From Bacteroidaceae bacterium (GTDB lineage Bacteria > Bacteroidota > Bacteroidia > Bacteroidales > Bacteroidaceae), in assembly GCA_024688885.1 (NCBI GenBank), contig JAILDV010000045.1:1-34683 (forward strand): 34,683 bases of DNA, given 5' to 3'. Shown here one piece after another: positions 1 through 34,629 of this stretch. The notes under the pieces are model-generated. The model was given only the letters and a program-made list of their open reading frames with translations, did not search any database and was not told where the DNA came from. Numbering within the stretch: the stretch's first letter is position 1; each line of letters starts with the position of its first letter. The position numbers were made by a program, and so were the translations under genes.

Positions 1-86
1 TAGAGACTGGAACTTCCATCTGCCAGTTTCTTTTCACGAAGCTTGACTTGTCCTCGTTGAGTTGTTGATGTTTGTTTCTTTGCCAT
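1..86 (-). CDS. Tyrosine recombinase/phage-type integrase, N-terminal fragment (runs off the left edge)
   Basis: Only the first 28 codons are in the window. The gene starts at the ATG at 84-86 on the minus strand and reads MAKKQTSTTQRGQVKLREKK, then LADGSSSLY. A Lys/Gln/Thr-rich start followed by a V-K-L-R-E-K-K-L-x-D-G-x-x-S-L-Y strand is typical of the arm-binding N-terminus of Bacteroidetes tyrosine recombinases carried by integrative elements. The catalytic domain is outside the window, so the family call rests on this short stretch. The gene points away from mnmE, and its leader holds direct repeats and a candidate attachment site (335-371). This suggests that an integrated element extends to the left. 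It could also be a different DNA-binding protein with a similar N-terminus, but context favours an integrase. Confidence 0.7.
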   Translation of the reverse strand, partial: MAKKQTSTTQRGQVKLREKKLADGSSSL

Positions 87-127
87 TGCCTTTATAGTTT
101 TAACGAGTTACTACCGAATGCCACCAC

Positions 128-200
128 GGGGGACAAAAAACCATCTTTCGGGGGACAAAAAATGGGGGTGCGTCACTCTTTGGGGGACATCTGGGGGACA
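128..200. repeat. Four direct GGGGGACA repeats in the integrase leader
   Basis: GGGGGACA occurs at 128-135, 150-157, 182-189 and 193-200. The first two extend to GGGGGACAAAAAA. Start-to-start distances are 22, 32 and 11 bp, close to two, three and one helical turns. The rightmost copy overlaps the putative -7 box. They could be recombinase arm-type sites, operator sites, or UGUCCCCC repeats in the leader RNA. Confidence 0.75.
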
Positions 201-206
201 AAGTTA
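199..206 (-). promoter_or_regulatory. Putative -7 element of the integrase promoter
   Basis: The minus strand reads TAACTTTG here, matching TAnnTTTG, with a TTG 20 bp upstream at the -33 position. It lies about 113 bp before the integrase ATG, so a GGGGGACA-rich leader would be transcribed. Confidence 0.5.
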
Positions 207-208
207 GG

Positions 209-314
209 CAAAAATCTGCAAACAAACAATACCTAAATCAAAAATCTGCAAAAACCCGAACAATCTTTAACACTTGAAAACAAGGGATTTACAGGCTTAT
301 TTTTGCAGATTTTA
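209..314. repeat. AAAATCTGCAAA repeats, two direct and one inverted
   Basis: CAAAAATCTGCAAA is present at 209-222 and again at 239-252. The inverted form TTTTTGCAGATTTT lies at 300-313. All three sit between the integrase promoter and the mnmE 3' end, a position compatible with integrase or excisionase binding. This is inferred from position and repetition only. Confidence 0.6.
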
Positions 315-334
315 TGTGTTTCTTTGCAATTGGA

Positions 335-371
335 CTATTTTCCCACGCAAAATCTACTTTCCGACGCAGAA
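335..371. other. Candidate integrase attachment site: tandem 18-bp copies of the mnmE 3' end
   Basis: On the minus strand, the last 18 bp of mnmE (354-371) read TTCTGCGTCGGAAAGTAG, encoding F-C-V-G-K-stop. After one base, a second 18-bp block (335-352) reads TTTTGCGTGGGAAAATAG, which also encodes F-C-V-G-K-stop. The copies match at 15 of 18 positions, and the three differences are all at third codon positions. A recombinase gene starts about 250 bp further out. The mnmE/trmE (thdF) 3' end is the established target of SGI1-type genomic islands in Proteobacteria, where the last 18 bp serve as the core. Use of the same target here is an inference. Confidence 0.6.
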
Positions 372-1694
372 ATGGCTAAAGATGTTGTTAAGGGTTTCCT
401 GGGGGGTGATGGCGGCTCCGGTGATGTCGGAAAGATTAGAGAGAACGAGACGAAGGTCTTCGGCGAGGAGGTCGCCACTGAGTGATGAGTGCAGCCCGTC
501 GAGGACACGAAGCAGATTGTGATGTGCATGGGAAAGTGCATCGTAGTGGCGAGCTGAAGTGACAATGACATCGTTTTCGTTATATTCCGGGATGTTTGCG
601 GCTGAATAGATGGCATGTTCCAGCGTATCTATGTTCTCGCTGTTCTTTGCACTAATGGCAATTGCATTAAGTTGGGAGTCAGGAGAATAAGGATGTATAT
701 CGGCTTTATTCCAGATGATGATGAGGGATTTACCTTCTGTACGATGACGGATGTCTTCTATTTCTGAAGCAGTGGGAATTTCGTCTATCACCCAAAGAAT
801 GATTTTTGCTTTCTCCATTGCCTGATATGTGCGGTCAATGCCAATGCGCTCAACCGTATCGTCTGTCTGACGAATGCCTGCAGTGTCAATGATGCGGAAG
901 CAGATGCCATTCAAGAGCATCGTGTCTTCAACGGTGTCGCGGGTCGTGCCGTGCACATCGGATACGATAGCGCGGTCATCCTTCAGCAAACGGTTCAGGA
1001 GGGTTGACTTGCCCACGTTGGTTTTGCCCACTATGGCAACAGGAATGCCATTCTTCAGAGCCTGCCCGGTTTCGAACGACTGAGCGAGACGTACGATACG
1101 CCGATCTATCGTCTGAGCCAATTGCAGGAGTTCTGTGCGGTCGGCAAATTCAAGGTCTTCGTGGTCGGAGAAGTCAAGTTCCAGCTCAAGGAGAGAGGTG
1201 AGTTTGAGCAGTTGTTCGCGCAGGGTGGCGAGTTCTGATGAGAAGTGTCCCCGCAGCTGACTCATGGCGATGTTGTGGGTTGCCTTGTTGGTGGAGGCAA
1301 TGAGGTCAGCCACGGCTTCAGCTTGCGAGAGGTCGATTTTACCATTGAGATAGGCACGCATGGTGTATTCGCCGGGGTTTGCCATGCGGCATCCGTTCTG
1401 CACCAATAGTTCTAATATTCTGTTGAGGATATAGGAAGAGCCGTGGCAGGATATTTCGATGGAGTCTTCACCCGTGTAGGAGTGGGGAGCACGAAACACG
1501 GACACCAGCACTTCATCAATGACGGTGGTGCCATCAGTGATGTGGGTGTAGAGGATGGTGTTAGGTGCTACAGAGTTGCAGCACAGGGAACAGAGGGTGC
1601 TGACAATGGCAAAGGTCTGAGGACCTGAGACGCGGATGATGCCGAGGGCGCCACCTGGAGCGGTGGCGAGGGCGCAGATGGTGTCGTTGTTCAT
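354..1694 (-). CDS. mnmE: tRNA uridine-5-carboxymethylaminomethyl(34) synthesis GTPase MnmE
   Basis: MnmE works with MnmG to modify the wobble uridine U34 of certain tRNAs, using folate and GTP. The 446-aa length matches the family. The N-terminal tetrahydrofolate-binding domain begins MNNDTICALATAPGGALGII and contains the PGEYTMRAYLNGKIDLSQAEA helix region. The inserted G domain shows G1 GKTNVGKST, G3 DTAGIR and G4 NKAD. The usual proline of G1 (G-x-P-N-x-G-K-S) is Thr here. The chain ends in the diagnostic F-C-V-G-K, whose Cys is the conserved C-terminal residue. The ATG immediately follows the stop of the phosphorylase gene, so the two are probably co-transcribed. The last 18 bp are duplicated just outside the gene, but the reading frame is intact. 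Confidence 0.96.
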   Translation of the reverse strand: MNNDTICALATAPGGALGIIRVSGPQTFAIVSTLCSLCCNSVAPNTILYTHITDGTTVIDEVLVSVFRAPHSYTGEDSIEISCHGSSYILNRILELLVQNGCRMANPGEYTMRAYLNGKIDLSQAEAVADLIASTNKATHNIAMSQLRGHFSSELATLREQLLKLTSLLELELDFSDHEDLEFADRTELLQLAQTIDRRIVRLAQSFETGQALKNGIPVAIVGKTNVGKSTLLNRLLKDDRAIVSDVHGTTRDTVEDTMLLNGICFRIIDTAGIRQTDDTVERIGIDRTYQAMEKAKIILWVIDEIPTASEIEDIRHRTEGKSLIIIWNKADIHPYSPDSQLNAIAISAKNSENIDTLEHAIYSAANIPEYNENDVIVTSARHYDALSHAHHNLLRVLDGLHSSLSGDLLAEDLRLVLSNLSDITGAAITPQETLNNIFSHFCVGK

Positions 1695-34004: not shown

Positions 34005-34606
34005 TTAATCAAACAACCCCGGGATAAGGGGACCCAATTGCTCTTTGACATCATTGGAATAAGTCTTATCGAACAGTTCTCTTAGCGGTGTTTTGTCCGT
34101 TAGTGAAATACTGAGGATTTGCAGGACCTCATAGGTCGAGCGTTTCAACTGCATGTCATGCTGGACAATCGCCACGAGGCAGTAGGCAGTGATGGCTGCA
34201 CTGGGCAGAGCGGTATCGTCGTAGAGTCGAATGCATACACCTTGCCTCCGAGCTTGAAGATGTCTGTTGCCCGTTTCTCCCTGGCCTGCGTCATCATGTA
34301 GAAGGCAAACTCCTCAAAGATACGGAAGTCGCGGTTCTGATTGGCCGTAGCCAACGTCGTCTTGGCGATGGGCTTTCGCCCCAAACCGAGGTGGAAACAC
34401 TTGGACTGATGGGCTTCAAGAGCCACTATCACATCGCGCAGACTCTCACGGTTACTGAGTTGACCGAACATCAAAGCAAGAAGTTGGTTCCAGCAGGTGA
34501 GATGCTTGACATAACGATTCCCGTCATACTTGTCAACAAGGTGGCGGAACTTGTCATAGTCTAAATACTCCAGCAATTGGGCGAATACGTATTTGTCTTT
34601 GTTCAT
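34005..34606 (-). pseudogene. IS4-family transposase with internal deletion and frameshift
   Basis: The N-terminal part starts at the ATG at 34604-34606 (MNKDKYVFAQLLEYLDYDKF) and has the DUF4372-type pattern, including C-W-N-Q-L-L-A-L-M-F-G-Q-L and the first catalytic Asp in V-Y-A-F-D-S-T-T. After I-P-L-C the frame degenerates and stops at 34145. The C-terminal family segment (SAAITAYCLVAIVQHD, then YEVLQILSISLTDKTPLREL) continues in another frame at 34005-34202. Together they cover about 210 aa of an expected 380-400, so roughly 180 residues are missing, including the second Asp and the Glu of the DDE triad. It is not functional as a transposase. A TACTTTTG box lies upstream at 34630-34637. 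Confidence 0.85.
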
Positions 34607-34629
34607 CTTGCAGCCTTTCAATTTGACTG

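Follow-up and report, generated by a model that had tools for sequence, protein, structure and literature searches.

In a Bacteroidaceae genome, the last 18 bp of mnmE are followed, after a single base, by a second block encoding the same protein end. These two blocks are probably the attR cores of a family of Bacteroidales tyrosine-recombinase elements, whose attP would often hold two cores and whose core copies would be exchanged with the chromosome. The window, meaning the whole stretch of DNA that was analysed (34,683 bp), forms the first part of contig C63 in a genome of 68 contigs (G000); since it is a contig start, the bulk of the element lies outside it.

The doubled core at the 3′ end of mnmE

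The inner copy, TTCTGCGTCGGAAAGTAG, is the end of an intact mnmE and encodes F-C-V-G-K-stop, as does the outer copy, TTTTGCGTGGGAAAATAG; the two mismatch at block bases 3, 9 and 15, all of which are third codon positions. This tandem arrangement is exactly as described in the original prediction, and was confirmed on the sequence. By our own arithmetic, a match of at least 15 of 18 bases at one given offset has a chance probability of ~3e-7. With up to two mismatches allowed, the double pattern was present in six of the 45 genomes of the genus searched, and the backwards pattern in none.

The original prediction also had an integrating element, with a recombinase gene, at the end of mnmE. An element of this kind, with a tyrosine recombinase, is borne out by the recombinase residues encoded at the contig end, which are identical to the start of an integrase in a related genome (G035). 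The start codon of the window's recombinase (84–86, minus strand) lies ~250 bp from the outer block. As a set, the features of the window, with a recombinase next to att and 37-bp direct repeats on two contigs, fit a tyrosine-recombinase integrative element. At the opposite end of the window, a frame at 34145–34621, which we take to resemble the start of an IS transposase, may be the reason for the contig break there.

Table 1. Positions of the doubled core, the adjoining element end and mnmE in the window.
Feature	Position	Strand	Details
mnmE (tRNA modification GTPase)	354..1694	-	446 codons, intact; last 18 bp are the inner core
Core copy 1 (inner)	354..371	-	present end of mnmE; identical copy at the far end, C12:591-608
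One-base spacer	353..353	-	A on the mnmE strand
Core copy 2 (outer)	335..352	-	joined to the element right end
Element right end, type A	100..334	-	235 bp, 97-98% identical to the mnmE-side flank in G035, G182 and G088
Candidate arm-type recombinase site ATCTGCAAA	302..310	-	motif; role inferred
Candidate arm-type site TTTGCAGAT	244..252	-	motif; role inferred
Candidate arm-type site TTTGCAGAT	214..222	-	motif; role inferred
Tyrosine recombinase, first 28 codons	1..86	-	gene cut by contig end; 100% identity to G035 integrase residues 1-28

The far end of the element

A core search of the same genome found a second double block on another contig (C12:591–627), reading TTCTGCGTCGGAAAGTAG A TTTTGTGTGGGTAAATAG, and the element is flanked by a 37-bp direct repeat with two differences between its copies (window 335–371 and C12:591–627). 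A further 18-bp copy at the far end had been anticipated, and it is present on C12, although as two more copies rather than one. C12 1–590 is the element side, with the DUF2149 gene and others beyond the far core.

That C12 is the other flank of the element follows from a sister genome without the element (G025), in which mnmE adjoins C12-type sequence. Its mnmE side is 90% identical to that of the window, the core comes next, and after the core a 53-bp match to C12 731–783 (94%), in the region of the DUF2149 gene, is followed by the equivalent of C12 9534–13126 at 98–99% identity. There was no match to C12 784–9533 within the G025 stretch compared, which means that the site in G025 is not just an empty version of this one. 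From these comparisons we conclude that C63 and C12 would have been neighbours before insertion, the pairing of the G000 ends depending on two separate contigs. At the mnmE end, G025 reads TTCTGCGTGGGAAAGTAG A TTTTGCGTGG and then diverges, so that a first copy with 10 bases of a second stands next to chromosomal genes.

A 108-bp stretch (L008, C12 628–735) lying between the far core and the DUF2149 gene contains one ATCTGCAAA motif and is similar to the right end found in a second type of element; it is likely a remnant of an earlier island. The tail behind the far core, beginning attgtaac, had been considered as the native mnmE terminator, an assignment that was rejected as the tail recurs in different genera and is followed by elements that encode an integrase of their own; it is now treated as the right end of the second element type. 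The idea of an AbiEi-like protein at the start of C12 was dropped, as the 32-aa open frame there had no match in Pfam.

Integrases, candidate arm-type sites and cargo

The G035 integrase is 388 aa in length, with Phage_integrase, Phage_int_SAM_5 and Arm-DNA-bind_5 matches. The right end of its element is 98% identical to that of the window, and the element encodes TraG (TIGR03783), TraK (TIGR03781), TraM (TIGR03779) and TraN (TIGR03780) above cut-offs, together with a partial MobC match below cut-off. G035 has one core at mnmE, and the far end of its element was not found on its contig. The element interior was likewise not found in the window's assembly, where the G035-type integrase is represented by 28 residues only. 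Counting both orientations, the TTTGCAGAT and ATCTGCAAA motifs occur three times in window 1–334, three times in C12:1–590, and once in window 372–34683.

Behind the second right-end type lie a recombinase gene of its own and a helix-turn-helix gene, and the cargo includes an RND efflux transporter (G331) and AbiEi/AbiEii (G212). AbiEii is also encoded on a 3-kb segment in G027. Three segments with AbiEi/AbiEii or RND efflux genes (L130, L131 and L133) suggest a cargo hotspot at the mnmE site.

Surveys of core number

Doubling is no peculiarity of this genome: in flank-anchored surveys it recurs through the element family. In these surveys, covering 349 genomes of the family, the element's own ends served as anchors while the cores and their spacing were left free; the left-end anchor matched in 26 genomes and the right-end anchor in 33. 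Thirty right-end loci comprise nine at an mnmE with two cores, 15 at an mnmE with one, one with a single core elsewhere than mnmE, and five that are coreless. Among the 27 distinct left-end places, two or three cores are present at 12 and one core at eight, the remainder being degenerate (two), coreless (four) or actually an mnmE end (one). The 12 multiple-core left ends, which largely have 29 bp TTCTGCRTCGGAAAGTAGATTYTGCGTGG in common, include one with a two-base spacer and two with a degraded second copy. Taking all 21 flank-anchored multiple-core places together, the cores are one A apart at 20 and two bases apart at the other (G027).

At the mnmE 3′ ends of 26 relatives there is one core in 22, two cores in two, a partial second core in one, and a contig cut in one; in three of the 22 (L022, L028 and L037) a type A right end lies behind the single core. 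In G022, G182 and G088 the joint GGGAAAATAG-tccaatt/tccgatt follows a single mnmE core, and with this the earlier proposal that the outer copy is element-borne holds for at least its 3′ half. Identical downstream tails follow single, double and triple cores, at mnmE as well as at left ends, in a tail collection that is enriched for doubles through the way in which the sequences were fetched. In G034 (L078, C31 near 849–885) an element left end with a degraded second copy is joined to a non-mnmE site, with an intact mnmE elsewhere in the genome, and this junction is a possible secondary insertion site.

Two assemblies in the collection each contain two mnmE genes. Those of G013 (L043/L044) have equal scores and the same 3′ end and lie on two contigs, and those of G004 (L045/L046) differ from each other; strain mixture, contamination and real duplication are alternatives.

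A scan of GTDB for two F-C-V/I-G-K-stop cores one base apart, with the spacer base free and the spacer length fixed, returned at least 117 stretches with a double coding core, and the same question put to viral contigs returned one match. All 80 titles among the matches listed are Bacteroidia. The matches listed hold 119 arrays (112 doubles and seven triples), with A as the spacer base in 116 and G in three; a regular expression assigned 64 of them, plus one uncertain, to mnmE, 48 to element left ends, and six to other contexts. Some records are the same places as those in the other surveys (e.g. L208 and L080), and the sets are not independent. As the pattern itself requires F-C-V/I-G-K-stop twice, one base apart, the GTDB set is uninformative on doubling frequency, spacing and codon positions; statistics on codon position and spacing in the 119 arrays were discarded as circular, and the flank-anchored loci were used instead. 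Among the matches listed, 29 arrays are mnmE doubles with a tail of neither type A nor type B, and are candidate footprints, with neighbours inspected in isolate khp7 and G025. For the tails in G031, G115, G367, G127 and G296, footprints and further types of element are both possible readings.

Core counts at paired element ends

Where both ends of an element can be paired, an attP with m cores entering a chromosome with n should give integrated ends that total m+n; with m=2, a total of three means a single chromosomal core, and a total of four a doubled one. Most paired ends total three. Eleven isolates, each preselected by a double in the GTDB scan, were searched for all cores, and in five of these one core at mnmE and two at a left end lie on the same contig, bounding segments of 11.8 kb (Xylanibacter ruminicola D31d), 7.2 kb (KHT3), 6.4 kb (tc2-28), 2.1 kb (HUN156) and 88 kb (tf2-5). 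Of the five, a type A right end is present only in D31d and tc2-28, and tblastn (1e-8) detected a relative of either integrase in the tf2-5 stretch only, so the other four segments may be passengers moved by other elements.

The same total is reached on one contig in G027, with one core at mnmE and two at the left end, and across different contigs in G069 and G314 (attR two, attL one) and G205 (attR one, attL two). The window genome has two and two, as does G212, where the mnmE double is one base off the pattern. G146, with one and one on a single contig, and G115, with a junction of left end, single core and right end, indicate that some attP have one core. Junctions of left end, double core and right end, as expected of a joined attP, occur in L080 and, as identified by regular expression, in four other left-end arrays.

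The remaining isolates are more varied. MA2016 and Segatella baroniae B14 have arrays, with two segments in a row in MA2016; in the B14 chromosome (849–977.5 kb), four successive core-bounded segments extend ~125 kb downstream of mnmE (L333, L334 and L339), and the bounding cores lie at 850 kb, 945 kb (a pair 21 bp apart), 955 kb (a triple), 960 kb (a double) and 975 kb. A triple forms part of a complex arrangement in S. albensis, and the ends in S. maculosa and Marseilla are on cut or separate contigs. In khp7 there is a double core at mnmE, with the second core abutting the end of a convergent 345-codon frame; the core search of this genome found a single 18-bp match at 571,836 and no second double elsewhere.

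Position of the proposed exchange and descent of the copies

Variation within the arrays points to where the copies are joined. In 41 left-end arrays among the matches listed, with a tail of neither type A nor type B, copy 1 is nearly fixed except at base 7 (base 12 is A in 40, and bases 15, 17 and 18 are fixed), while in the last copy bases 12, 15, 17 and 18 vary. The opposite is seen in 29 type A mnmE arrays, again among the matches listed, where variation lies at bases 3, 6, 7, 9 and 12 of copy 1, and the last copy hardly varies except at base 3. This opposite variation implies an exchange between approximately bases 10 and 14, which would put the boundary near GGN-AA in either copy; the search pattern admits only differences that are coding-silent or V/I, and leaves their location free.

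Seventeen distinct flank-anchored pairs, admitted when at least 13 and 12 of the 18 bases agreed with one core, have 59 differences, of which 46 are at third codon positions, five at the Val/Ile base, six at the stop-codon base and two in the degraded copy of G034. We read this bias as a mark of coding descent. An inverted-repeat core extending across both blocks was ruled out, the blocks being direct repeats and single-core joints being common.

Proposed core exchange and alternative explanations

In the explanation that we favour, the family would insert at the last 18 bp of mnmE, and the double in the window would be attR. The joined ends would often read left end-TTCTGCRTCGGAAAGTAG-A-TTYTGCGTGGGAAARTRR-right end, with both cores encoding F-C-V/I-G-K-stop, so that a crossover at either would restore MnmE. 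Where the chromosome offers a single core, crossover near GGN-AA would yield three cores in total, with one at mnmE and two at the left end, or two at mnmE and one at the left end. Later excision or integration that used the cores unequally would pass 19-bp units from element to chromosome or back, and doubled footprints and sometimes triple arrays would remain. For the two-and-two state of the window, the most likely route is entry into an mnmE end that was already doubled, favoured by the partial, partly eroded double that G025 keeps without the element. That the recombinase makes these exchanges, and the order in which it would do so, we infer from the observed sites, copy numbers, flanks, far end, and homologous ends and integrases. 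The first origin of the 19-bp unit lies outside the proposed explanation.

Plain accretion, whereby successive single-core elements were mostly deleted and their cores left adjacent, is an unlikely source of the doubles, even with accretion plainly present at the site: B14 has its four segments over 125 kb and its two cores 21 bp apart, MA2016 has two consecutive segments, and in the window's genome the 108-bp piece like a second-type right end is lodged between the far core and the DUF2149 gene. Random deletions would not yield exactly one A between cores in 20 of 21 flank-anchored places, and element left ends, too, have doubles, in which the first copy hardly varies; the 119 GTDB arrays carry no weight against accretion through their one-base spacing, as this was a requirement of the pattern. 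We also think it decidedly unlikely that the doubled block was inherited with mnmE in this group, as part of the ancestral chromosome, and that elements merely use it. Doubled ends without the window's element do exist in G025 (the first copy and 10 bases) and khp7, and the original prediction had named a tandem in element-free relatives as evidence against an element origin. However, 22 of the 26 relatives' mnmE ends have one core, three of these with a type A right end. The same double, with its nearly invariant, element-constant first copy, stands at element left ends, so that the G025 and khp7 doubles do not refute an element origin and are better read as 19-bp footprints.

A longer recombinase site (a core of ~29–37 bp), of which the second block would be a part and its likeness to mnmE secondary, could explain the 29 bp largely common to multiple-core left ends. 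We hold it to be very unlikely, given that single-core joints are frequent (15 of 30 right-end loci and eight of 27 left-end places), that the copies are direct rather than inverted repeats, and that the differences in the 17 pairs are concentrated at third codon positions. Where the original prediction had left accretion, a previous excision and a spare target side by side, the data favour copy exchange during integration and excision. An extension of this core-exchange explanation, which we put forward tentatively and regard as doubtful, is that the two-core attP is a working device: every insertion would leave a spare, gene-restoring site. The landing pad would in this way copy itself, and its number of copies, from one to three, would both record and encourage the build-up of islands (AbiE-type, efflux and conjugative) at mnmE throughout the Bacteroidales.

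Relation to known systems and significance

Members of the SGI1 family in Gammaproteobacteria carry a characteristic Int/Xis backbone and are mobilised by IncA/IncC helpers. Comparison with the literature rests on parts of three articles (PMC3285670, PMC5704250 and PMC4755523). As described in the parts consulted, SGI1 targets the last 18 bp of mnmE, has a tyrosine integrase near one end, is known to integrate in tandem, and is delimited by 18-bp imperfect direct repeats, one per end (PMC3285670, PMC5704250). The window's element resembles it in lying at the last 18 bp of mnmE/trmE with the gene end intact, and differs from SGI1, as so described, in having two cores at both ends rather than a single repeat, with doubles and triples at 19-bp spacing, and Bacteroidales hosts. 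Both trmE entries in the table of a review, in the portion seen, are gamma-proteobacterial elements (PMC5704250), and no description of mnmE as a Bacteroidales integration site was found among the titles and abstract openings from which the literature was judged. The site thus appears to be the Bacteroidales counterpart of the SGI1 target, new in its tandem, variable-number cores.

Likeness to the Bacteroidetes conjugative transposons is seen in TraG, TraK, TraM and TraN of the G035 element, beside the same right end, whereas the insertion at mnmE and, in the wider family, the doubled cores are differences. Accretion of the ICESt1/ICESt3 type, as presented in the consulted part of the review, is similar in its arrays of elements at one target gene and its segments without a detected integrase, but there an element lies between successive att sites, whereas here one to three cores stand one base apart (PMC5704250).

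These findings place an SGI1-like mnmE integration hotspot, with an unusual att structure, in the Bacteroidales, dominant bacteria of the gut and rumen, and indicate where Prevotella-type genomes stack mobile islands carrying AbiE-type, RND efflux and conjugation genes. If the exchange of copies is real, the 19-bp ladder would be a readable history of integration and excision, empty sites that were formerly occupied would be recognisable, and the choice that a recombinase makes between tandem cores could be tested simply.
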